DNA of 64,000 nt from Planctomyces sp. (GTDB lineage: Bacteria > Planctomycetota > Planctomycetia > Planctomycetales > Planctomycetaceae). Where the stretch lies: the NCBI GenBank assembly GCA_016795105.1, contig JAEUIH010000040.1, forward strand, positions 1 through 64,000, read 5' to 3'. The position numbers and the translations under genes are program-made. Each line of letters opens with the position of its first letter. Position 1 is the first letter of the stretch. Of this stretch, positions 4,808 to 31,919 are shown piece after piece. The notes below the pieces were generated by a model that was not told the DNA's origin, did no database searches, and saw only the letters and a program-made list of their open reading frames with translations.

Positions 4808-5089
4808 GTAGCAGGCACTCTCCGAGTGCCGTCCGCTGCGATTTGTGCGTTAAAGTAGCAGGCACATTCCATGTGCCGTCCGCCGTGCCCAGGTTGCGTT
4901 TTCTTTTTTGCGATGTTTAATTTGCGCTCGGTAGGGGTGTTGCGGACGGCAGACGGAGTCTGCCTGCTACAGTAGCAGGCACTCTCCGAGTGCCGTCCGC
5001 AGTGTTCGGCGTGCGTTTTCTTTTTTTGCGATGTGCAATTTGCGCTCGGGTAGGGGTGTTGCGGACGGCAGACGGAGTCTGCCTGCTAC
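4808..5089. repeat. Palindromic hairpin repeats (AGTAGCAGGC family)
   Basis: Five copies of a 29-base element begin or end with GTAGCAGGC and have a GGCA...TGCC stem. Forward copies start at 4808, 4855 and 4972; inverted copies end at 4970 and 5089. About 116 bases (4855-4970) are nearly duplicated at 4972-5089. The first copy begins one base after the bamA stop. The same family makes up the 31.6-31.9 kb array. Each copy can fold as a stem-loop, and forward/inverted pairs can form long cruciforms. A role as transcription terminator or mRNA 3' end stabiliser is inferred. Confidence 0.88.
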
Positions 5090-5130
5090 AGATGCGAACA
5101 GTATCCTGTTGCTGGATTTTCTGATAATCT

Positions 5131-17492: not shown

Positions 17493-18706
17493 GGCGTATT
17501 CAACGAATTCTGACAGGTTGCTGCTGCTCGTGTTTGTGCTCCTGCCCCGGTTTATCTGTCTGCTCGCTGAAATCACCAGCGCTGACGTCAGCAGCGATCT
17601 CTTTACCAGCGTTCTCTTCACCGTTGCTGAAATCAAAGTCACAAACATCACTGTTCCTGGCGGCGTTCCTGTTGATCTCAACAATACTCACCGGAACTGC
17701 ATACTGTCAGGACCCTGACCTGCGATTTGGAGCCGGAGTCCCGCCGGAAGTCGATGCGATTTATGATCGAGGGCTGGATTGGCTGGCACGCAATCAACTG
17801 GAAGACGGAAGCTGGCCAGGTGGGGACGATGGGCATGGGGGATCCGGCAACTGTGGGATCACAGGGATGTGCATCATGGCATTTCTGGCCAGCGGAGAAG
17901 ATCCCAACTTTGGTCAGTACTCTGTGCCAATTCGAAAGGCCGTTCAGTCGCTGATTCTCAGCCAGAGTGCCAAGACCGGATATCTGCCGGGCAGTATGTA
18001 CCATCATGGGTTTGCCATGCTGGGACTGGCAGAAGTTTATGGAGTGCTTGACGAACAACTGCTGTGGGAAGGCATGCCCGATGTGAAACAGAGTTCCCGA
18101 CGAAGCATCGGTGAGGCTCTGGAACTTGCAGTTCGCTGTGCTGTTACGGCACAGAAGGTAAATTCTGCGGGAGGCTGGAGGTATTCGCCGGATTCCAAAG
18201 ACGCGGACACGTCCGTTGCCGGAGCAGTACTGATGGGGCTGCTTGCATCCAGGAACGCCGGGATACGTGTGCCGGACGAATCGATTGAAAACGCATTGGG
18301 GTACTTTCGTCAGATGACCTCAACGCAGGGCTACGTAGGCTACTCCGGCGGAGCGGGGGGCTTCTCCGGATCACGTAACCTGCAGGCGATTGCAACTCTG
18401 GTGTATGCGATCGGACGGCGCAAAGATTTGGACGAATTTACGGCTGTGCAGCGTCAGCTCGGGGCAGATCTTGAGTATCAGGATCACAGCTATCCGGAAT
18501 ACTTCCGCTACTATATGGCTCAGGCGATGTTCCAGAGCGATGTGGTTGCATGGGGTAAATGGAATCAAATGACCATCCGCCAGCTGAAGGGAATGCAGTC
18601 GCAGGATGGAAGTTTTGCCAGTAGCCACGGGGCGGCATACGGAACTTCGATGTCGCTGCTTTGTCTCGGCCTGAACTATCGCTTTTTGCCAATTTATGAA
18701 CGGTAA
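17489..18706 (+). CDS. Secreted prenyltransferase/squalene-oxidase-repeat protein
   Basis: A 405-residue protein with the alpha/alpha-barrel repeats of the terpene-cyclase fold: GLDWLARNQLEDGSWPGG, AVQSLILSQSAKTGYLPGS, GGWRYSPDSKDADTSVAG and QLKGMQSQDGSF. No catalytic DxDD of squalene-hopene cyclase is visible, so cyclase activity is not implied. The ATG overlaps the preceding stop (ATGA). The first 45 residues are oddly Cys-rich. A TTG at 17624 would give a cleaner signal peptide (MLKSKSQTSL..., cleavage near AYCQ), so the true start is uncertain. Such proteins recur in planctomycete envelope gene clusters. Confidence 0.75.
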   Translation: MRRIQRILTGCCCSCLCSCPGLSVCSLKSPALTSAAISLPAFSSPLLKSKSQTSLFLAAFLLISTILTGTAYCQDPDLRFGAGVPPEVDAIYDRGLDWLARNQLEDGSWPGGDDGHGGSGNCGITGMCIMAFLASGEDPNFGQYSVPIRKAVQSLILSQSAKTGYLPGSMYHHGFAMLGLAEVYGVLDEQLLWEGMPDVKQSSRRSIGEALELAVRCAVTAQKVNSAGGWRYSPDSKDADTSVAGAVLMGLLASRNAGIRVPDESIENALGYFRQMTSTQGYVGYSGGAGGFSGSRNLQAIATLVYAIGRRKDLDEFTAVQRQLGADLEYQDHSYPEYFRYYMAQAMFQSDVVAWGKWNQMTIRQLKGMQSQDGSFASSHGAAYGTSMSLLCLGLNYRFLPIYER

Positions 18707-21700
18707 GACTCTCGTGACACTGCAGCTGCCGGTTTATTGTCTCCGCAAGCTCCTTCGTTTACAGGCTGTCCTGAGATTCGGGGCTGTCCTGAGATTACAG
18801 ATGCTTCCGGTATTCCTGTTGGGACTTTGCATCTCGGGGATTTGGGATTCTGCTGCGGCTGATGAGGGGATGTTGCACTGGGTCTCCGGAGACAGTCTTG
18901 GCGGCGATATTACTGCGGCAAGTTCCGAAGAAATTGTGTGGCAGTCTCCTCTGTTTGAAGAAGCACTCAATCTCGATCCTGCAGCACTGGCCGGAATTGT
19001 TTACCCCAAGATTGATGTGAGTCCCGATCCAGCGGATCCGTTTCGCGTTTCGCTCGTTAATGGCGACGTCGTCTTTGGAAGTCTGCTTCAAATCACGGAG
19101 GCACATATAGAACTGCGGACGTCGCGACATGGAGACATTCGCATCGGTCGGAACCTGGTTCGCAATCTGATTCGCGTTGACAATCCCGGACTTGTCTATC
19201 TTGGTCCACAGGGGTTGAAGGGATGGCGTCATCCGGTGTTCAGTTCGTGGACGACTCCACCGGGCTGGGATGAACTTCCAGGAGGGCAGCTGACCACCTT
19301 TCGGCCGGAAGCTGTGATGTTCAGAGCAATGGAATTCCCGGATCAGTGTGAGATCGAGGTAATTCTGTCATCTACAGCGATCCCATCGTTTGTCATGTCG
19401 CTGGGAACAAACCCGAATTCCACCGTACGACTCGAAACATGGAGTGATGTGCTGGTTGCCCGGAACGACAAAGACTTTGTGCGAATCGAAGAACTGAAGT
19501 CGACTCAGCGTCGAGTCCATCTGTTTCTTTATATTGACTTTGTGAATGGCAAGCTTGTTGTCACTTCTGCGGCTGGAAAGAAGCTTGCAGAGATGTTGTC
19601 AAAGGAGTCCGATTTTGGAGTTCGCGGACTTTTGTTTCGCAACGGAGAACGCGATTTGACTGTCGAGTACCTGAGCGTCAGTCGCTGGGATGGGAATGAA
19701 CTTCAGGGTGCAGAAACGGCAACGAATCATGTGCAGCTGGCGTCCGGCGCAGTACTTGAGGGAGAGGTTGCGGGCCTGTCGCCGGATGGACAAATTCTTC
19801 GGATGCAAGTCGGAGACGAACTGCGAGAGCTGCCGATCAATGACATCCGCAATCTCTCACTCGCCCATGCCACAGACGGACCAGCCCCTGGTCCGGTGCA
19901 GGTGTCGTGGAGCGATGGAACGGTGATTTCGGGTGTCTTTGCGGAAGCGACGCCGGAAAGTTTCCGGATGCAGGTTCCCTGGTCAGAGGGCATTGTGAGT
20001 TCATTCCGCCACGGAGTTCATCGGCTGACGTTGCCCGGCACGCTTGCGGCTCAGCCGGAGCCTGACACACTTTACTTTGAAGGCGGTTCACTGCAGGGAA
20101 ACCTGAAGATGGAACCTGGCACGACTCATCCGGTACTCTGGCAGCCGATTGGCAGTCGAAACGCGGTATCGCTTCGCAGCAGTGATCGCGCACGATTCCT
20201 GCGGGGCGCTCGTCAGACAGAGCCAACGATCAACCTGACAGAATTTCCTGATGTCGTCTATCTATCTGACGACAGCGTTCTTCCATGTCGGTTGCTCTCC
20301 GTGAGCAATGAAAAAATCGAAATTGCATCGCCTCTGACTGCAGGAGCAGAAGTCCTGCGAGAACATCTTCGAGCCGTAGAATTGACTCGACAGTCGAACA
20401 CCAGCCAGCGTGATTTTTCGGATTCAGGCTGGAAGCGTGTAGTGGGTTCTGTGGATCAAAGACCGGACTCCATCGCGTTTCGAGCATCAGAAGCGATGGG
20501 CCATGCAGATATCCTGACTGGTGATGTTGTACATTTCCGCCTGTCATGGGGAGAGCTTGTCACCGCCGATGTCGTGTTTAATCTTTACACAGCGGTTCCC
20601 ACAAGCCATCAGACGGGAAAGACGATTGCTTTCCAGTGTCGCGGCACATCGATTTCGGTCCATGACGGCGCGGTCATTAACCAGCGAGCGAGAAACGCGA
20701 ACAATGAAGCAGCCCATACGATCGGCCTGCGTCAGCGTTCAGCCAGCGTCACGATTTTTCGGCAGGGAAATAAGATCAGCGTGTCTGTCGATGGTCGACT
20801 GGCAGAGACATTTGACTATATCCCGCCGGAACAGGAACTGAGGGGTCTCCTGATTCGAGCGAATATCATCAACCAGAATCGAGGCCGTCAGGGTGAAGGG
20901 CGTCCCAAAGATGTCAACGAAAACGTTGTTCGGATTTCCGATTTCGAAGTCTGCGACGTTGTAGGAGGCGCGATTCGCAAGTTTATTGACGATGAGGCAC
21001 GCAATGCAACGCTGACAATCCCTCGATTTCGACGTGATCATCCTCCGACTCATGTGCTGCTCGCGCCGAATGGCGACCTGCTGAGAGGAGAATTGCTGAG
21101 TGTCGATGCGAAGGAACTTCAGTTTGAGTCTCGTCTCGATAAACTGAGATTGCCTCGCGAACGAGTCGCTGGAATCATCTGGCTGAAGCCGGTTGAGCCA
21201 GCCCTGAAGCTTGAGACACCAGGCAGCCAACCGCAGGCTCAGGATCGTCAGCCCGCAGACGGATCACCGGCTGCTGCCCCCGCAACACCTGGCCAGCCGA
21301 CTCGAATTGCACTCCCGGAGGGTACACTGCAGTTGCTTCTGGATGATGGCTATCAACTTCAGGTCAGGCCATTGCGTATGGAAGGTGACCAGCTTGTGGG
21401 AGAATCCCAACTGCTGGGAGAATGCCGCGTTGCTGTCGCATCGATACAGGAACTTATGACAGGGCAGTGGAGTGCTGATGAGCTGACGGCCGGTTATGAA
21501 GAATGGGTTCCTCGATTTGCTTCCGATCCGGTCTGGCCTGTAGACGTCGCTGGCGAACCCTCTCCTGAAGCCAAAGCTCTGCTCGGAAAGCCGGCGCCAG
21601 GCTTTGAAGTGCCGTTGAATGGTGGCGGCATGTTTCGCATGGACGATGCGCGGGATCGCGTTGTTGTGATCGACTTCTGGGCCAGCTGGTGCGGTCCATG

Positions 21701-22013
21701 TACAGGATCACTGCCGAAGTATGCTCGTGTTTGTGAAGAATTTGACCCGACACAGGTCATTTTCCTGCCTGTCAATCTCAAGGAATCGCCGGATGTCGTT
21801 CGGGATTTTCTTGACAAGCGAAAACTACAGTTTCCTGTCGCGCTGGATACAAATGGTGACGTGGGCAAACTCTTTCACGTGGCCGGGATCCCGCATACTG
21901 TCGTGATCAGCCGTCGCGGTCTGGTACATCTCGTCAAGACCGGATACTCGGCGGGAGATGAAGACAAGCTGCGAGAAACGATTCAGGGCCTGCTGTTTGG
22001 CGTTAGTCGCTGA
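18696..22013 (+). CDS. Giant secreted repeat protein with C-terminal TlpA/thioredoxin domain
   Basis: A 1105-residue protein. The N-terminus is basic and hydrophobic and ends in a signal-peptide-like core (LPVFLLGLCISG...SAAA); an internal ATG at 18801 is the main alternative start. The body contains several beta-rich repeats of the type GDVVFGSLLQI, GAVLEGEVAGLS, DSVLPCRLLSVS and GDLLRGELLSV, interleaved with concanavalin-like segments. The last ~140 residues form a TlpA-like thioredoxin fold with FWASWCGPC (redox cysteines about 999 and 1002) and the cis-Pro region GIPHTVVI. The gene overlaps the preceding one by 11 bases. A periplasmic disulfide or heme-related redox role is inferred for the thioredoxin end only. 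Confidence 0.78.
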   Translation: MNGKTLVTLQLPVYCLRKLLRLQAVLRFGAVLRLQMLPVFLLGLCISGIWDSAAADEGMLHWVSGDSLGGDITAASSEEIVWQSPLFEEALNLDPAALAGIVYPKIDVSPDPADPFRVSLVNGDVVFGSLLQITEAHIELRTSRHGDIRIGRNLVRNLIRVDNPGLVYLGPQGLKGWRHPVFSSWTTPPGWDELPGGQLTTFRPEAVMFRAMEFPDQCEIEVILSSTAIPSFVMSLGTNPNSTVRLETWSDVLVARNDKDFVRIEELKSTQRRVHLFLYIDFVNGKLVVTSAAGKKLAEMLSKESDFGVRGLLFRNGERDLTVEYLSVSRWDGNELQGAETATNHVQLASGAVLEGEVAGLSPDGQILRMQVGDELRELPINDIRNLSLAHATDGPAPGPVQVSWSDGTVISGVFAEATPESFRMQVPWSEGIVSSFRHGVHRLTLPGTLAAQPEPDTLYFEGGSLQGNLKMEPGTTHPVLWQPIGSRNAVSLRSSDRARFLRGARQTEPTINLTEFPDVVYLSDDSVLPCRLLSVSNEKIEIASPLTAGAEVLREHLRAVELTRQSNTSQRDFSDSGWKRVVGSVDQRPDSIAFRASEAMGHADILTGDVVHFRLSWGELVTADVVFNLYTAVPTSHQTGKTIAFQCRGTSISVHDGAVINQRARNANNEAAHTIGLRQRSASVTIFRQGNKISVSVDGRLAETFDYIPPEQELRGLLIRANIINQNRGRQGEGRPKDVNENVVRISDFEVCDVVGGAIRKFIDDEARNATLTIPRFRRDHPPTHVLLAPNGDLLRGELLSVDAKELQFESRLDKLRLPRERVAGIIWLKPVEPALKLETPGSQPQAQDRQPADGSPAAAPATPGQPTRIALPEGTLQLLLDDGYQLQVRPLRMEGDQLVGESQLLGECRVAVASIQELMTGQWSADELTAGYEEWVPRFASDPVWPVDVAGEPSPEAKALLGKPAPGFEVPLNGGGMFRMDDARDRVVVIDFWASWCGPCTGSLPKYARVCEEFDPTQVIFLPVNLKESPDVVRDFLDKRKLQFPVALDTNGDVGKLFHVAGIPHTVVISRRGLVHLVKTGYSAGDEDKLRETIQGLLFGVSR

Positions 22014-22029: not shown

Positions 22030-23283
22030 TTATCTCAGACGCTGTTCAACGAGTTCAGCGGGGTTGTACGCGTCAATCAAAGTCTGCATTTCACGGACAC
22101 GACTTCGAATCGTCGTATCCTGCAGCAGTCTCTGCAGGTCCTGAAGAATTGCGTTCGCGTTTGGTCGGCACTTCAGGCCGAGACCATGCCATACAAGTCT
22201 GGCGGTATGATCAAACTGGTCGTAGTCCTGCGGCCATGCGAGTATGGGAACGCCCTGACTGAGCGCCGCATACATAACACCTGTTCCTCCATGATTCATC
22301 ACCACGTCGTATCGATGTATGTACTGCTGATAGTCAATGTATTCACAGGTGTGAAAATTTGGCACATCAGGATCGGCGTGTGTTTCTGCGTCTGTACCGG
22401 TTGCTCGGCCCTGCGTGAAATGAAAAACGGTTTCCGGCATCTGAGCAGCAACTTTGCGCATCAGTTTACGAACGCGTTCCTTGGCCCACCAGAGATGAGT
22501 TCCCAAAGAAACCAGCACATGTCGTCGCCCAGGCACGAAATCGGGAGACGGATGTGGAAACGGAGGGCTCGCTGTCAGAGGTCCGCAGAAGATCATCCAG
22601 TCAGGCCACGATCGGGGGAATTCAAACTCCTTCACACCAAGCGCCAAAATCGTATCGGGTGAATAAACGGTTTCAAAACCATCTTCCCGATAGATCGAAT
22701 TCACGCCAAGTTCGCGCATTGTTCGAGCGAACATGAAGTGCAGTGATTTCTTGAATGTTCGAATCAAAGACCGTCCGGCGGCGTCACGAACAGTACCCAG
22801 CGGATGATTCCATGGTGACCAGCCGCCCAGATAAGAAGGCGTTCCATCTCCTGTCTCCACAACACAGGGCGTAGGAGTTGACGTCCACCATCGAATACCC
22901 ATCGATTGTGCAAGGAGCCCGGCGACAGGGACGGTCAGATCGCAAATGACCACATCCGGGCGCGAATCTGTCCACAGAGATCTGAGTTCGGATCGAAGCT
23001 GATGCATCAGTGAAAGATTCAGCTTCAGCTGGCGGAGCAGTCGCACAGGATTGCTGCCGACTCTCTGGGGAGTATCTGAAATCTCAAATACCGTCTGACT
23101 TACACCATTCAGGAGTGGCACGAAGGGGAAGTTACTGAGTTCGACGGCTCCTGCCGCTTCCGGAGTCGTTAAGACTCGCAGATTCCGGAATCCCCGAGCA
23201 CGCAGCAATCCGGCCAGCTGGAGTAGTGGGAACAGGTGCCCTGCAAACGGCGGAGCAACAAAGTCAATCCTTGTTTGCAACAT
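22030..23283 (-). CDS. UGT/MGT-type glycosyltransferase (GT1)
   Basis: A 417-residue GT-B glycosyltransferase starting at the ATG at 23283 (20-base overlap with the preceding gene); the open frame extends further upstream but inside another gene. The N-terminus DFVAPPFAGHLFPLLQLAGLL is typical of macrolide and sterol-type glycosyltransferases. The donor-binding signature is VVMNHGGTGVMYAAL followed by GVPILAWPQDYDQFDH. These enzymes put a sugar from a nucleotide donor onto a small lipophilic acceptor. As the last gene of the six-gene operon it probably glycosylates the product made upstream. Donor and acceptor cannot be read from the sequence. Confidence 0.88.
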   Translation of the reverse strand: MLQTRIDFVAPPFAGHLFPLLQLAGLLRARGFRNLRVLTTPEAAGAVELSNFPFVPLLNGVSQTVFEISDTPQRVGSNPVRLLRQLKLNLSLMHQLRSELRSLWTDSRPDVVICDLTVPVAGLLAQSMGIRWWTSTPTPCVVETGDGTPSYLGGWSPWNHPLGTVRDAAGRSLIRTFKKSLHFMFARTMRELGVNSIYREDGFETVYSPDTILALGVKEFEFPRSWPDWMIFCGPLTASPPFPHPSPDFVPGRRHVLVSLGTHLWWAKERVRKLMRKVAAQMPETVFHFTQGRATGTDAETHADPDVPNFHTCEYIDYQQYIHRYDVVMNHGGTGVMYAALSQGVPILAWPQDYDQFDHTARLVWHGLGLKCRPNANAILQDLQRLLQDTTIRSRVREMQTLIDAYNPAELVEQRLR

Positions 23284-24091
23284 ACTGCTGAGTCCTTTCA
23301 CAGTGACAGGCCAGCACCGGTACCTGTGTGGATGCCGCAAATTCTCGAAGCCTATGCTGCGTTTCCATATAGTCGACGATGGAATACTGCACTCGCCGAG
23401 CGGGCAATGGCAGACGTCTGGCTTTTTCAAATGTTCGGCTGTCCCAGAAAGAATCGACAGCATAACAGATCCGCCCGCGATCCGTGTTGAGCAGGTATCC
23501 CGTATGTCCTCGAGCATGCCCAGGCAGGTCCAGCAGAATCAACGAACCGTCACCCCAATAGTCGATTGCCGGTATTCGACCAGCAACGTCAGGAGTCTCC
23601 CTGAATCGGTCTTCTGCAACGGGAAGACATCGACTCAGGAAATTGTCCGGCAGGAGCTGAGGAAGAAAACCGTGATGGAGTTGTTTCCACGGTGACAGAG
23701 TCTCAAGCCATTGGAGAGATTCAGTTCTCGCAACAAATTGCGATTCACGAAAGCGGCTGAGTCCTCCAATATGATCGGCGTGAAAGTGCGAAACGAAGAT
23801 ATGAGAAATCTGCTGAGGATCGATCTCCAGTCGTGACAGGAAGTCCGGTTCGAACACGGTCTGTCGGTAGGGAGTAAACAGCAAATTGCGCATGATCCAT
23901 CCAGGCAGTCGCGCAGTTGCTTCGAGGAACATCGGTCCGTAGCCGGTATCAATGAGGCATTTTCCATGGACAGGGTGTTCGAAGGATGCAAAAACCGCGT
24001 GGAACTTTCTCCAGCGAAACGTGCCTGTTCCGGTCAGGAACTCGTTTTGCATGCAGTATCCGGCGTTGAAGAACTTCAAATTGGTCAGCAT
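23264..24091 (-). CDS. Metallo-beta-lactamase-fold hydrolase
   Basis: A 275-residue MBL-fold protein. The metal motif is SHFHADH (His102, His104, Asp106, His107), with further ligands in DLPGHARGHTGYL, the YAVDSFWD strand and LACHCER near the end. The fold covers thioesterases, lactonases and glyoxalase II. Next to a KAS III and a glycosyltransferase, a thioesterase or lactonase acting on an acyl intermediate is the most natural guess. It overlaps the KAS III gene by seven bases and the glycosyltransferase gene by 20. Confidence 0.85.
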   Translation of the reverse strand: MLTNLKFFNAGYCMQNEFLTGTGTFRWRKFHAVFASFEHPVHGKCLIDTGYGPMFLEATARLPGWIMRNLLFTPYRQTVFEPDFLSRLEIDPQQISHIFVSHFHADHIGGLSRFRESQFVARTESLQWLETLSPWKQLHHGFLPQLLPDNFLSRCLPVAEDRFRETPDVAGRIPAIDYWGDGSLILLDLPGHARGHTGYLLNTDRGRICYAVDSFWDSRTFEKARRLPLPARRVQYSIVDYMETQHRLREFAASTQVPVLACHCERTQQYVANKD

Positions 24092-25149
24092 GACTGAGAT
24101 TCCTCTGAGACAGGAGCTTGCTCAAAACCACCAGGACCTTGACTGAGAATCATGGCTGCCTGAGCGTAACCGGCAGACGTGCCAAGCAGCATAAAAGGCC
24201 CAGTCGTCGGGATTCGGTGAGTTCGCAGGCACCAGTCCAGCATGAATGGGAGGCTGGCTGCCGCCATGTTCCCAACATCGCGGACCTGAGAATGAAAGTG
24301 GTGTTCGTCACTGTTGAGCAGCCCTCGAACGACATCAAGAGCTCTTGGAGACGCCTGATGCGGAATGATGTGCAAGTCGGAAACAGAGCGACTTTGGTTT
24401 TCCGGAAGAGACTGCCATTCCGCGACAAGTGAACGCACCATGCGAGGCAGTCGGCCGAGAGCAACCCGAAAGACGGCGGGGCCATTCATATCAAACAGAT
24501 AGTCGCTCATCCGATCTTCTGAATACTCCATTGCCGTCATGTAGTGGGCACCACCATTGACCTTGCACAGGTCCAGATGTTCGGCATAGGTCTCATGAAC
24601 CATCAGGAGAGGACCGAACGGAGGAGTTGATGCGAGAACGGCTGCTGCCGCACCGTCGCCAATCAGGCCGGCACTCTCGGGCTGCTTCCAGTTGACTCCC
24701 TTCATGGCGCATTCGGAAGCGACCAGAACAATGTTCCGATAGCCGCCGGCAGCGAACAGACCATTCACGGCATTTAAGGCAACCAAAAACCCAAGACAGG
24801 TACTCTGGATGTCAAAGCACGGGATTCCCCGAGCTGATGTCCCGGCAAGATTGAGATAATGGGCTGCATTGCAGGGAATGGGGCGATATCGTGAAGTGCT
24901 GCAGTCGATCAGCAAATCAACATCCGACCACGAAATGCGGGCTTGTTCCATCGCCAGACGAATGGCCTCACTTCCCATTGTCAGAATCGACTGCGGTGCG
25001 CGGCATTCATATCGAGTCTCAACGCCGGTGTGCTGTCGAGTCCATCCGTGAGGGGCTTCAATTCTTTCGTCCACCTCTTCGGCCGTTACTTTCCACGGGG
25101 GAAGGAAACGACCGGTGCCGAGGATTCTGAAATTCTGTCGCGTAACCAC
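24085..25149 (-). CDS. 3-oxoacyl-ACP synthase III-like enzyme (KAS III/FabH family)
   Basis: A thiolase-fold condensing enzyme of about 354 residues. The catalytic triad is visible: Cys118 in FDIQSTCLGFL, His264 in HIIPHQASPRAL and Asn294 in VGNMAAAS. The GDGAAAAVLAS loop and the C-terminal LLGTSAGYAQAAMIL also fit. No ATG lies upstream of the conserved N-terminus (FRILGTGRFLPP) outside the neighbouring gene, so the GTG at 25149, preceded by GGGAG, is chosen; this overlaps the hydrolase gene by 64 bases. It could be a fatty-acid initiation enzyme, but its place between a hydrolase, an OleD-like SDR and glycosyltransferases points to a dedicated secondary pathway. Confidence 0.87.
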   Translation of the reverse strand: MVTRQNFRILGTGRFLPPWKVTAEEVDERIEAPHGWTRQHTGVETRYECRAPQSILTMGSEAIRLAMEQARISWSDVDLLIDCSTSRYRPIPCNAAHYLNLAGTSARGIPCFDIQSTCLGFLVALNAVNGLFAAGGYRNIVLVASECAMKGVNWKQPESAGLIGDGAAAAVLASTPPFGPLLMVHETYAEHLDLCKVNGGAHYMTAMEYSEDRMSDYLFDMNGPAVFRVALGRLPRMVRSLVAEWQSLPENQSRSVSDLHIIPHQASPRALDVVRGLLNSDEHHFHSQVRDVGNMAAASLPFMLDWCLRTHRIPTTGPFMLLGTSAGYAQAAMILSQGPGGFEQAPVSEESQSC

Positions 25150-25748
25150 TGAGCTGCTATCTCCCTGACCTGAGGATCTTCCCAATAGTCCATGTGTCCT
25201 GTGCCGGTGACAAGGATCTCCGGAGAGCGAAAACACAGTCGTGAAAGTGTATCGCGACTCCCCTGAAGAATTGTCGTCGGAACCATCGTTCGAGAGAACG
25301 CGACCGGCCCTAATGCAAGCACCCGTATTCGATCTGCATATGCTGCAAGGCCAGTCCAGGAATTGATCAACTGCAGTCCGCAGCTTCCTGTAATCAGAAG
25401 CAACCGGCTGGTGGACTGCAGCAACGATTCCCAATGTGGTGAAGCAAGCGTCTGGTAACCAAAGGTCAACGATCTGAGAAACTGAAAGCTGTTGGCAAAG
25501 CTTGCCCTCAGCAATGGAATCGCAGGATCGACCTGTTCCAGATGTTCCTCACCGGTTCTGACAGACGGGTCCGGAGTGAAGGGGAAGTTCCAGCGGACGA
25601 CTGACTGAACGTCGACATCTGGTGGTGTTATCAGCATGCGTTGAGACTTTGTCAACCGACAACTCTCAGGATCGCTCAGCCCGGTGACCACTGCAATTTT
25701 GTAGGGCGTATGATGATGTATGGCCGGGGGACGACGAAGAATGTGCAT
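25086..25748 (-). CDS. Alpha/beta-hydrolase-like protein
   Basis: A 220-residue protein that fits the small alpha/beta-hydrolase fold. LLLITGSCGLQLINSW (about 117-131) looks like a nucleophile elbow, with Ser122 or Cys123 as nucleophile. QGSRDTL supplies an acidic residue (Asp166) and GTGHMDYW a histidine (His185). It is short and lacks a standard GxSxG, so the call rests on motif order. It starts three bases after the GT2 stop, and its 3' end overlaps the KAS III start. OleB, the usual hydrolase of olefin clusters, belongs to a different (haloalkane-dehalogenase) branch. Confidence 0.62.
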   Translation of the reverse strand: MHILRRPPAIHHHTPYKIAVVTGLSDPESCRLTKSQRMLITPPDVDVQSVVRWNFPFTPDPSVRTGEEHLEQVDPAIPLLRASFANSFQFLRSLTFGYQTLASPHWESLLQSTSRLLLITGSCGLQLINSWTGLAAYADRIRVLALGPVAFSRTMVPTTILQGSRDTLSRLCFRSPEILVTGTGHMDYWEDPQVREIAAQWLRDRISESSAPVVSFPRGK

Positions 25749-25751
25749 TAG

Positions 25752-27029
25752 TCACTTCTCCCCCTGTTTCAGAATCTCAAAACGGTTTCCTTCGCAGACT
25801 CGAATTGTATGTCGACGCCATCGAATTGTTCGGACGAGAAATCCATGCAGAGCATGCAGGGGCTGAAGCAACTCTGCGGTCAGCGATAACACGGGCGATA
25901 GCGCTCTGGATTCACGAAATGCTGTCAGGTGGACCAGATTCAGCAGCAGATAGCGGGCAACCAGCAGCCCGAACAGTTGAATGGTCATCTCCGGCATCAG
26001 GCAGGTCAGCAGAATCGAACACCACAAGAGCACCGGAGGTATTCCAAGCAGGAATGTCAGCAAGAGCTGCACCGAAATGCTCTGATCGCGAATAAGGATC
26101 GAAGCAAACAGCATCCATCGATGCATCATTGCAAAGTAGTGTCTGTATCCTTCAATGCTGGTCTGAACCGTCTGCGGCGTGATTCCCTGAATTACTCTCC
26201 AATCGTGCTTCGTCGCGTGCCTTCGAACCGCATAGTCATCGCACAGTTCGTTCAGCAGCGGCCCAAATCCACCGGATTGCTGCATCACTGAGGTACGCAC
26301 AACGTAGAACATGCCGTTGATTGAGACCGGCGGTTCAAAACTGAGCAGAGGCAGGTATGTGAGTACCGCGTTGTTGTTTACAAAGTGTGCCAGCAGACGA
26401 CTCCAGAATCGTCGGTCAGACTGATAACGAGGCAGCCCGGTATAGAGGTCTCCGTTTCTGAGATGTGCCTCGGCATGAATCAGGCTCTGAGGAGTAATTA
26501 CCGTGTCGTCATCGAGGACGACAAACCACGTTGTTGAACAATCTCGCAATGCCTTGTCCAGCTTAAACGTCTTGGGATTGACTGTTGGGGGCGATTCCTC
26601 GCAGAGCATCACGCGGACGTTTTGATGTTTGGCTCGCAGCTCTTCCGCGATTCGCTGTCCCTCGGGATCGGTTTCATCCACGAGCCACAAGAACTGCACG
26701 GATTTTGGAAGAGCTTCGACGTTCTCCCACAACTTCTCCCTGAGCAATGGATCCCCACTCAAAATGGGCTGAACCACACTCACTGACGTCAATATATTCA
26801 CATTCACTGCCGCTGATACAGGCGTTGACAGGGTTGAAGAACGTCGCTGACCGTGTTCAGAGTCCCCGAGTTCCGCTTCGTACTTGCTCAGTAATTGTCT
26901 CTGCTGTCGAATGATGTTCAGCGCCAGCCAGCTCTTTGCGGTCAACAATCCGAGGTAACTGCACATCACAAGGCTGACGGCCGTTGTTGCGTCTTCATCA
27001 AGGCCTGCCATTAATGCCAGAAGATTCAT
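25752..27029 (-). CDS. Membrane GT2/GT21-type glycosyltransferase (ceramide-glucosyltransferase-like)
   Basis: A 425-residue protein starting at the ATG at 27029, which overlaps the SDR stop (ATGA); an upstream ATG at 27056 is less likely. It has an N-terminal helix, then a GT-A domain with VLDDDTVITP (Asp173-175), KLDKAL, and the acceptor-site region NELCDDYAV. An HRW near MMHRWMLF resembles the end of the processive-type QxxRW motif. Several C-terminal helices follow. The order resembles ceramide glucosyltransferase and the HpnI type of hopanoid enzymes. It likely transfers a sugar to a membrane lipid. Confidence 0.82.
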   Translation of the reverse strand: MNLLALMAGLDEDATTAVSLVMCSYLGLLTAKSWLALNIIRQQRQLLSKYEAELGDSEHGQRRSSTLSTPVSAAVNVNILTSVSVVQPILSGDPLLREKLWENVEALPKSVQFLWLVDETDPEGQRIAEELRAKHQNVRVMLCEESPPTVNPKTFKLDKALRDCSTTWFVVLDDDTVITPQSLIHAEAHLRNGDLYTGLPRYQSDRRFWSRLLAHFVNNNAVLTYLPLLSFEPPVSINGMFYVVRTSVMQQSGGFGPLLNELCDDYAVRRHATKHDWRVIQGITPQTVQTSIEGYRHYFAMMHRWMLFASILIRDQSISVQLLLTFLLGIPPVLLWCSILLTCLMPEMTIQLFGLLVARYLLLNLVHLTAFRESRALSPVLSLTAELLQPLHALHGFLVRTIRWRRHTIRVCEGNRFEILKQGEK

Positions 27030-28000
27030 GAATACGGATCCTCCCGACGGATCCACTCCACGAAATTTCGGACACCTTCCGTTGTTGTGAATGGTGGAAG
27101 TCCAAAGGTCTGAATTGTCCGGCTGATGTCAAATGTCTTTGAATACGCAAAGACGTGCACACCAAATCGTGTAATCGGGGGTTCCTTCCACCAGAGCAGT
27201 TTCCGATAGATGACTTCCAGCATCAACGCGGCCCATTGAGCCTTCCTGATGGAAACGGTTTTCGTTGGACGAGGAATATCGAGCTGATCAAAAACACTCA
27301 GCAGGAATTCGATGATCGGCACAGGCTCATTGTCGGTCAGATTGAATTCACCCGTCACATCAGCACGTTCTGCTGCGAGCTTCAGATAGTGTGTCAGGTT
27401 GTCTATATAAATCAGGTCACCAATCACGGGACTGGATTCCCGGATCAGCAGAGGGAGTCTACCTGCTTTCGCTGCTGCCAGAATTCGAGGAAACAACACG
27501 GTGTCTCCTGGCCCGTAGACTGCTCGTGGACGAAGAATACACCACTGTCCAGGATAGTCCCGCACGAGCTTTTCCGAGAACTGTTTTGTGGCTGCATAGA
27601 TGTTGACGGCCGGGTTTGCCTGCGGCGTGTCTTCTGTGATGCTCAGTTGATCTTCGGATCGGTAATAGACACTTGAAGACGATACATACAGGAACTTTGG
27701 AACTCCCTGCTGACGACAGGCGTCCAGCAGAACGCGAGTCGCCTGGACGTTATCCTGTTGGAAACTGCGAACGGAACCCCACGGAGAACTGCGAGCCGCA
27801 GCATGCAGAACAACGTCGCTGCGTTCGATCGCTGCCAATAGCTCTGTTGACGGCGGGGATGCCAGGTTGTGCCGGATGTAATCCGGATCGCTGATCGGTC
27901 GTCGACCAACAAGGGTTGTCGACCATCCAGCAGCACGAAATGCCTGGGTCGAGCGAGTTCCAATAAACCCGCTGGCGCCAGTGATCAGAATGTGGGGCAT
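27026..28000 (-). CDS. NAD(P)-dependent SDR, 3-beta-HSD/OleD-like
   Basis: A 324-residue extended short-chain dehydrogenase. The nucleotide motif is TGASGFIG at 7-14, the catalytic pair is Tyr135/Lys139 in YAATK, and a SSSS stretch sits at 107-110. The C-terminal part (DNLTHYLKLA, NLTDNEPVPIIEFL, ITRFGVHVFAYSKTFDISR) closely resembles OleD, the 2-alkyl-3-ketoalkanoate reductase of olefin biosynthesis. It is the first gene of the six-gene leftward operon. The substrate is probably a beta-keto acid made by the nearby KAS III, but no OleC-type ligase is present. Confidence 0.85.
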   Translation of the reverse strand: MPHILITGASGFIGTRSTQAFRAAGWSTTLVGRRPISDPDYIRHNLASPPSTELLAAIERSDVVLHAAARSSPWGSVRSFQQDNVQATRVLLDACRQQGVPKFLYVSSSSVYYRSEDQLSITEDTPQANPAVNIYAATKQFSEKLVRDYPGQWCILRPRAVYGPGDTVLFPRILAAAKAGRLPLLIRESSPVIGDLIYIDNLTHYLKLAAERADVTGEFNLTDNEPVPIIEFLLSVFDQLDIPRPTKTVSIRKAQWAALMLEVIYRKLLWWKEPPITRFGVHVFAYSKTFDISRTIQTFGLPPFTTTEGVRNFVEWIRREDPYS

Positions 28001-28195
28001 ACTGCTGAAATCTTCCGAAGTCTCATTCCATTGAGCTGTGACAGCTTTACCAATGCTGTGGTGTCCGGGATCTGAATGGTATCGAATCCACCGGAATTCG
28101 GAATTCCGCTTGATGTTGTTTGTCGATCATGTTACCAAGAGACAGGTTTTCGTGAATGATCGCGATCGATGCATCCCGGAATCGTGAGGCAAACT

Positions 28196-31065: not shown

Positions 31066-31632
31066 GTGGACTCTTTGTCAGATACCGAACTGGTCGAACG
31101 AGCCAAACAGGGAGACGGCTCTGCCTTTGAACAGCTCGTGTATCGACATCAGGACCGGCTTGTACACAGCCTCGAACTGGGAACAGGTTCACGGGAAGAT
31201 GCACTTGAAATCGCTCAGCATGCTTTCGTGTCCGCATGGAAGCACCTGAACACGTTTCGATCTGAAGCCGGATTCTATTCCTGGCTGTATCGTATTGCTC
31301 GCAACTGCGCCGTCACTCACCATCGCAGGAATCGACTGCCGACAGTCTCGCTGGATTCAATAACAGAATCCCGAGGGTTCGATACGGCCGATCATGAACA
31401 TCAGCCGGCTCCGTCACATCAGCTGGAACGCGAGGATGAGCTGACTCAACTGCGGCAGGCAATGTCGCAAATCCCGGACGAATTTCGAGAAGCTTTGATC
31501 CTCAAAGAAATTGACGGACTCTCCTACGAAGAAATCGCCCGCCTGTTGGAAATTCCAATGGGGACCGTCCGAAGTCGAATCTTCCGAGCACGCCAGGAAC
31601 TCGCCGAACGAATCCGACGGTTGAAAAAGTAG
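31066..31632 (+). CDS. ECF-type RNA polymerase sigma factor
   Basis: A protein of about 188 residues read from the GTG at 31066; the frame opens earlier inside lgt but that part is unlike sigma factors. Region 2 spans DTELVERAKQGDGSAFEQLVYRHQ to SAWKHLNTFRSEAGFYSWLYRIARN; region 4 spans QIPDEFREALILKEIDGLSYEEIARLLEIPMGTVRSRIFRARQEL. No anti-sigma gene is adjacent, which is unusual for an ECF factor. It probably shares the lgt transcript. Its TAG stop lies inside the first hairpin repeat. Confidence 0.88.
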   Translation: MDSLSDTELVERAKQGDGSAFEQLVYRHQDRLVHSLELGTGSREDALEIAQHAFVSAWKHLNTFRSEAGFYSWLYRIARNCAVTHHRRNRLPTVSLDSITESRGFDTADHEHQPAPSHQLEREDELTQLRQAMSQIPDEFREALILKEIDGLSYEEIARLLEIPMGTVRSRIFRARQELAERIRRLKK

Positions 31633-31919
31633 CAGGCAGACTCCGTCTGCCGTCCGCTGCGATTTGTCTGCGGTGTTGAAAGTAGCAGGCAGACTCCGTC
31701 TGCCGTCCGCAGCGATTTGTGTGCGGTGTTGAAAGTAGCAGGCAGACTCCGTCTGCCGTCCGCTGCGATTTGTATGCGGTGTTGAAAGTAGCAGGCAGAC
31801 TCCGTCTGCCGTCCGCAGCGATTTGTATGCGGTGTTGAAAGTAGCAGGCAGACTCCGTCTGCCGTCCGCTGCGACTCGGCTGGCGGCGTTGCGGACGGCA
31901 TTCGGAGAATGCCTGCTAC
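31629..31919. repeat. 53-bp hairpin-repeat array with inverted terminal copy
   Basis: Five copies of GTAGCAGGC-GGCAGACTCCGTCTGCC-type elements start at 31629, 31682, 31735, 31788 and 31841, giving an exact 53-bp period. The linker is CTGCGATTTGTnTGCGGTGT with small changes. One inverted, diverged copy closes the array at 31891-31919. The array fills the whole gap between the sigma factor (+) and sppA (-). The AAGTAG of the outer copies provides the stop codons of both genes. It is not a CRISPR array: repeats plus linkers are near-identical and there are no variable spacers. Confidence 0.93.

Follow-up and report, generated by a model that had tools for sequence, protein, structure and literature searches.

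The window analyzed here is a stretch of 64,000 nucleotides (nt) from a Planctomyces sp. genome (contig JAEUIH010000040.1 of assembly GCA_016795105.1), in which six leftward genes encode a short-chain dehydrogenase/reductase (SDR), a family 2 glycosyltransferase (GT2), a putative alpha/beta-hydrolase (ABH), a beta-ketoacyl-acyl carrier protein synthase III (KAS III), a metallo-beta-lactamase (MBL)-fold hydrolase, and a UDP-glycosyltransferase-like enzyme (UGT) (Table 1). From the SDR to the UGT, the successive genes are joined by a 4-nt overlap, a 3-nt gap, and overlaps of 64, 7, and 20 nt. The putative KAS III start is the GTG at 25149, and the 64-nt overlap with the ABH gene that this start produces is also found in two relatives (L072 and L073). 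The original prediction that the six genes form one operon is borne out by the minus-strand calls, by the overlaps or gaps of at most 3 nt, and by the recurrence of the order in other genomes; it had also reported that an OleC-type ligase is absent, and none was found among the six genes with the Pfam and NCBIfam models. Apart from the ABH, all the parts are from known families.

Table 1. Genes of the six-gene operon, in the direction of transcription
Gene	Position in the window	Strand	Length (amino acids)	Assignment
SDR	27026..28000	-	324	extended NAD-dependent epimerase/3beta-hydroxysteroid dehydrogenase (3beta-HSD) type
GT2	25752..27029	-	425	GT2/GT21-type membrane glycosyltransferase, ceramide-glucosyltransferase/HpnI-like
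ABH	25086..25748	-	220	putative alpha/beta-hydrolase without Pfam family
KAS III	24085..25149	-	354	Pfam ACP_syn_III; putative GTG start
MBL	23264..24091	-	275	MBL-fold metallohydrolase, acyl-homoserine lactone (AHL) lactonase (AiiA/AttM) type
UGT	22030..23283	-	417	GT1/MGT-type glycosyltransferase

Strong relatives of the KAS III, defined by scores above 300 bits, occur in 11 genomes when that of the window is counted, all of them Planctomycetota and divided between two families, with three carriers in the window's own family (G000, G148, and G517) and eight in the second (G676, G627, G767, G735, G792, G839, G953, and G954). The complete order SDR-GT2-ABH-KAS III-MBL-UGT is present in seven genomes (the window, L037, L055, L056, L057, L072, and L074), and because it recurs in six genomes besides that of the window, the operon is not a chance arrangement. 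Partial copies exist in four more genomes. The order in L075 is intact as far as the MBL gene, where the contig ends; L073 begins within the ABH gene and continues with KAS III, MBL, and UGT; the copy in G517 is spread over two contigs, with SDR-GT2-ABH on one (L103) and KAS III-MBL on the other (L059); and L058 has only KAS III and MBL plus a divergent SDR. The operon proteins of the relatives are 34-58% identical to those of the window, and in the alignments the catalytic residues of all six families are intact across the relatives. The order is therefore kept in two families of Planctomycetota, and the lack of conservation that the original prediction had set against itself did not occur.

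The pairwise distances of the six proteins among the seven genomes correlate with each other (r 0.51-0.92), as expected of a block inherited together. In both the KAS III and the SDR trees, the window sides with members of the other family instead of its own-family relatives (support 100/99 in both), which suggests a transfer between the families. The base composition gave no signal of foreign origin, with a GC content of 0.533 in the operon and 0.537 in the rest. Three further genomes from the same genus as the window contain no close relative, and a scan of the genome contigs gave a single locus, on the G148 contig.

The KAS III residues Cys117, His263, and Asn293 (numbering of P0001) are invariant in the 11 relatives, in agreement with the complete triad reported earlier from the window; the triad is not specific to OleA, since it is common to all KAS III enzymes. 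The NCBIfam model PRK07204 (NF005541) gives 251 bits, below its cut-off of 402, and PHROGs contains no match. By profile, the nearest solved structures are Neisseria FabH, MxnB, Aquifex FabH, and CorB, and the top structural neighbor of the predicted model (pLDDT 85.7) is PqsD, tied with FabH and others. The operon clade (100/100), the FabH group (100/99), and the OleA group (100/100, three Streptomyces references only) are each separate in the KAS III tree, and the FabH copy of the window's own genome (L001) lies beside the FabH group, apart from the operon enzyme. Two short fragments from the same genome, situated on long branches (OWN_L004 and OWN_L005), were included in the tree and set aside. 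The operon clade joins the KAS IIIs of a wider cassette, described below, at moderate support (81/92), but MxnB and CorB, which are close by profile, are located on an unresolved fork.

The active-site columns agree with this placement. FabH Arg36 and Arg151 are contacts of coenzyme A; each is kept in only one member of the operon family, and Phe304 is replaced by Thr in all members, as in MxnB and CorB. A FabH identity was rejected on account of these replacements and the separate position in the tree, and the grouping with the housekeeping FabH that the original prediction had named as contrary evidence was not seen. At the column of OleA Glu117, the operon family has Ile (ten members) or Val (one), MxnB and CorB have Val, the FabH references have Phe or Cys, and the three Streptomyces OleA controls have Glu. 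The Glu117-Pro of OleA is the general base that reaches into the partner subunit (PMC7064751, PMC4578411). This Glu-Pro is found in all OleA except two (PMC7064751), and the E105A exchange in PpyS is reported to cause a loss of activity, while MxnB and CorB have Val there (PMC4578411). The Ile or Val at this column makes a plain head-to-head condensation unlikely and leaves room for a malonyl-type or a beta-keto-activated condensation. An OleA identity was rejected because of the missing Glu and the separate clade; the lack of OleA among the sequence matches at E<=1e-20 and its lower structural rank were not counted as proof against it. Judged from the phylogeny and these columns, the operon KAS III is placed in a clade of its own, neither FabH nor OleA.

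The SDR matches Pfam Epimerase (6e-32) and 3Beta_HSD (3e-24), and its best NCBIfam matches are two OleD-type models (1e-45 and 3e-42). These score 156 and 145 bits, below the cut-off of 580, and the earlier statement that the SDR strongly resembles OleD was overstated. In the tree, the SDR shows no specific grouping with the OleD proteins of oleABCD clusters, its recurring partnership being a different one, with KAS III and MBL; in NCBIfam it also matches HpnA weakly, far below the cut-off. The Gly-rich loop and Tyr135-x3-Lys139 are invariant in nine members, and we propose that the enzyme is a beta-ketoacyl reductase, distantly OleD-like. The MBL matches Pfam Lactamase_B and, in the PDB, an AHL lactonase (1e-16), and reaches 54 bits with the NCBIfam AttM model, below the cut-off of 390. 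Its HxHxDH motif, His192, Asp213, and His263 are invariant in ten members, and a role as thioesterase or lactonase is proposed.

The GT2 matches Pfam Glyco_transf_21 (1e-27) and the NCBIfam HpnI model (6e-16; 58 bits, below the cut-off of 310), and its nearest PDB match is ceramide glucosyltransferase (1.9e-16). The DDD, CDD, and HRW motifs are invariant in eight members and fit the GT21-type pattern of DDD, D, and (Q/R/H)xxRW, and hydrophobic segments are located at residues 322-370. The UGT matches the MGT model of NCBIfam (7e-17) and, in the PDB, YjiC (1e-22), CalG3, and a sterol glucosyltransferase; His16, Asp115, and Asp355-Gln356 are invariant in eight members and the HGGTG region is mostly conserved. 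From these motifs and relatives, the GT2 is proposed to perform the first glycosylation, on a lipid hydroxyl, and the UGT the second.

The ABH is the part specific to the operon. None of six members has a Pfam match. The AlphaFold2 model (pLDDT 87.8) resembles lipases in Foldseek at E values of about 1e-4 with modest TM-scores of 0.36-0.52. Ser122-Cys123-Gly124, Asp166, and Gly184-His185 are invariant in eight members, and from these invariant positions a Ser122-Asp166-His185 triad is proposed. Among the 397 genomes of the class, ABH matches occur in six, all of which carry the operon KAS III, itself present in seven; the probability of this overlap by chance is about 1e-12, a value computed ignoring shared ancestry.

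KAS III, SDR, and MBL also stand together outside the operon, in Paenibacillus, Pontibacillus, Paraburkholderia, Pseudomonas, Rhizobium, Paracoccus, Ketogulonicigenium, and E. coli, so that this core cassette is present in Planctomycetota, Bacillota, and Pseudomonadota, with plasmid loci among the carriers. In other Planctomycetota, an OleD-like SDR and a lactonase-like MBL are fused in one open reading frame (ORF) beside KAS III (L062:8635-10623, L066:9621-11531, and L067:5777-7717), and in three truncated loci (L009, L011, and L013) they are adjacent and in step beside KAS III. Neither an SDR nor an MBL gene lies beside KAS III in the planctomycete control loci L014-L035, which derive from weaker KAS matches. 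The neighbors of the cassette vary and include an "F390 synthetase-related" ligase (TIGR02304), ATP-grasp, GNAT, DUF3419, PAP2, sterol desaturase, and acyl-CoA desaturase genes. In E. coli, a seven-gene cassette of KAS III, SDR, MBL, F390-synthetase-related, PAP2, sterol desaturase, and acyl-CoA desaturase genes (L076:11965-18846 and L102:2501-9382) sits between narI and purU and occurs in 672 of the 5,426 complete genomes (~12%); the asymptomatic-carriage strain ABU 83972 is one of its carriers. The KAS III of the Paenibacillus cassette scores 425 bits with PRK07204, above the cut-off of 402. Compared with the TIGR02304 cassettes, which have a PRK07204-type KAS III, the six-gene operon shares adjacent KAS III, SDR, and MBL genes from the same families, but it lacks the adenylating ligase, ATP-grasp, and GNAT genes, adds GT2, UGT, and the private ABH, and places the SDR first. 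No TIGR02304 ligase over the cut-off was found in 13 genomes including that of the window, this being the only ligase model tried genome-wide.

In two planctomycete cassettes (L038:3010-8215 and L066:8665-13830), KAS III, SDR, and MBL are accompanied by ATP-grasp and GNAT-like genes, an arrangement similar to that in Paenibacillus and Paraburkholderia. A DUF3419 gene lies beside the cassette in a planctomycete (L062:6427-7632) and in Rhizobium (L086:11140-12213); the relationship of DUF3419 to BtaA, a betaine-lipid enzyme, is a hint of head groups of the betaine type.

The operon is flanked on the plus strand by a TlpA-like ORF ending at 22013 and a DUF1501-type ORF starting at 28169. In each of four genomes, a large ORF of about 1,100 residues adjoins the operon, on sides that differ among them (window 18696-22013, with a TlpA-like C-terminus; L055:1854-5225; L056:2066-5365; L057:1195-4734). 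Elsewhere in the window, the palindromic element GTAGCAGGCAGACTCCGTCTGCC... forms tandem arrays at 31626-31874 and 4854-5091, with a 53-nt unit in 4.7 copies at 31626. A palindrome of different wording lies upstream of the KAS III gene in L059, close to the operon split in G517.

Several known systems offer explanations for this gene set. The original prediction drew on the Ole pathway (OleA, OleB, OleC, and OleD; olefin and beta-lactone synthesis), in which case the KAS III would carry out a head-to-head condensation of two fatty acyl thioesters, the SDR would reduce the 2-alkyl-3-keto acid, and the product would be glycosylated, perhaps as a lactone glycoside. Both systems hold a thiolase-fold condensing enzyme, an extended SDR of the OleD superfamily, for which OleD models are the best NCBIfam matches, and a hydrolase in one operon, and a cluster of OleA, a glycosyltransferase, OleC, a cytochrome P450, and OleD was reported in another bacterium (PMC7064751). 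However, the planctomycete operon contains neither OleC nor OleB, the catalytic Glu of OleA is Ile or Val in all 11 relatives, the KAS III and SDR clades are separate from OleA and OleD, and an MBL and two glycosyltransferases are added; we therefore regard an Ole-type route as distinctly unlikely. Nothing points specifically to a lactone glycoside, as the operon has no beta-lactone synthetase and the MBL resembles lactone-opening enzymes. A condensation like that of MxnB and CorB, joining two beta-keto chains into a branched diketone or alpha-pyrone before reduction and glycosylation, would suit the profile result, in which these enzymes rank alongside FabH in the top four PDB sequences, and the residues that they have in common with the operon family, namely Val or Ile where OleA has its Glu and Thr in place of FabH Phe304. 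Yet the KAS III tree resolves no such grouping, an SDR step would be unusual for a pyrone, and MxnB and CorB (of myxopyronin and corallopyronin) are interconnecting ketosynthases of type I polyketide synthase (PKS) lines, whereas no PKS genes were found among the neighboring ORFs read. To our knowledge, no partnership of this kind with an SDR, MBL, or glycosyltransferase exists for MxnB or CorB, and this route seems improbable.

In the Pseudomonas quinolone signal (PQS) pathway, the KAS III PqsD works with the MBL-fold thioesterase PqsE, in addition to PqsA. An analogous pair in the operon, with a PqsD-like KAS III and a PqsE-like MBL, would make a secreted or signaling metabolite, a small acid with a beta-keto or beta-hydroxy group, and glycosylation would then serve its export or inactivation. 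The position of PqsD within the tied top group of structural neighbors and the recurrence of KAS III, MBL, and an adenylating ligase in the wider cassette speak for such a metabolite, but the six-gene version has no ligase, including none for an aromatic starter, adds an SDR and glycosyltransferases, and contains a GT2 of a type suggestive of a lipid acceptor in the membrane, so we also hold this to be unlikely. The GT2 itself could be taken to glycosylate ceramide or a hopanoid, with the SDR as ceramide reductase or HpnA-like enzyme. It shares the GT21-type family, the catalytic motifs, and hydrophobic segments at the C-terminus with ceramide glucosyltransferase and HpnI, and the SDR matches HpnA weakly; however, the HpnI and HpnA scores are far under their cut-offs, and no squalene-hopene cyclase exceeds its family threshold in the genome of the window or in seven of the nine other carriers tested. 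With no cyclase over the cut-off in eight of ten carriers, the hopanoid link was rejected, and we know of neither a sphingolipid nor a hopanoid pathway that uses a KAS III. A sphingolipid- or hopanoid-linked operon is accordingly very improbable, the cyclase being the one enzyme of these pathways that was searched for across the carrier genomes.

We consider the chances about evenly balanced that the six genes form a glycolipid operon built on the KAS III-SDR-MBL core. The KAS III would join an acyl thioester with a carrier-bound malonyl or beta-keto partner to give a beta-ketoacyl thioester, the SDR would convert the keto group to a hydroxyl, and the MBL would free the chain by thioester hydrolysis or open a lactone. 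The membrane GT2 would then put the first sugar on the hydroxyl, the UGT would add a second sugar or modify another hydroxyl, and the ABH would trim or transfer an acyl group; we infer the substrates, the order of the steps, and the product in this scheme. The order kept in seven genomes, the intact active sites, the separate KAS III clade with its loose link to the cassette enzymes, the replaced FabH residues, the core and its fusions in other bacteria, and the occurrence of the ABH only with the KAS III were counted for it, and its lipid character is read from the nearness of the GT2 to ceramide glucosyltransferase, the lipid-type neighbors of the core elsewhere, and the chemistry of the KAS III and SDR. 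Several points weigh against the proposal. Neither an acyl carrier protein nor an activating ligase is encoded in the operon, so the substrates would have to be supplied by another source, presumably fatty-acid synthesis; the closest enzymes to the UGT are of the macrolide and sterol type, and thus the aglycone could be something other than an acyl chain; the MBL may act on a lactone instead of a thioester; and the close relative L058 has the KAS III, SDR, and MBL genes only, in a genome where the ABH was not found. The earlier idea that the operon condenses, reduces, and glycosylates is consistent with the chemistry and with the GT2, for which the closest solved structure is that of a ceramide-glycosylating enzyme, but its Ole analogy is not supported, given the missing OleA Glu and the lack of grouping with OleA or OleD; what survives, as an inference, is a glycosylated condensed lipid.

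In the open-licence literature searched, we found neither the six-gene combination nor a described product for the core cassette, including the E. coli version, or for its planctomycete equivalents. More tentatively, KAS III-SDR-MBL may be an undescribed, widespread bacterial module for the synthesis of a hydroxylated lipid backbone, to which lineages add different head-group modules (amino-acid/adenylation, betaine-like, and desaturation/hydroxylation), with the six-gene operon as a glycosylated branch carrying a private alpha/beta-hydrolase family. If so, one conserved enzyme trio would start a lipid family without a described product in Planctomycetota, Bacillota, and Pseudomonadota, including about 12% of the complete genomes of E. 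coli. The version in this species would make the role of the core directly testable, and the planctomycete operon would be the clearest clue to the class of the product, a glycolipid.

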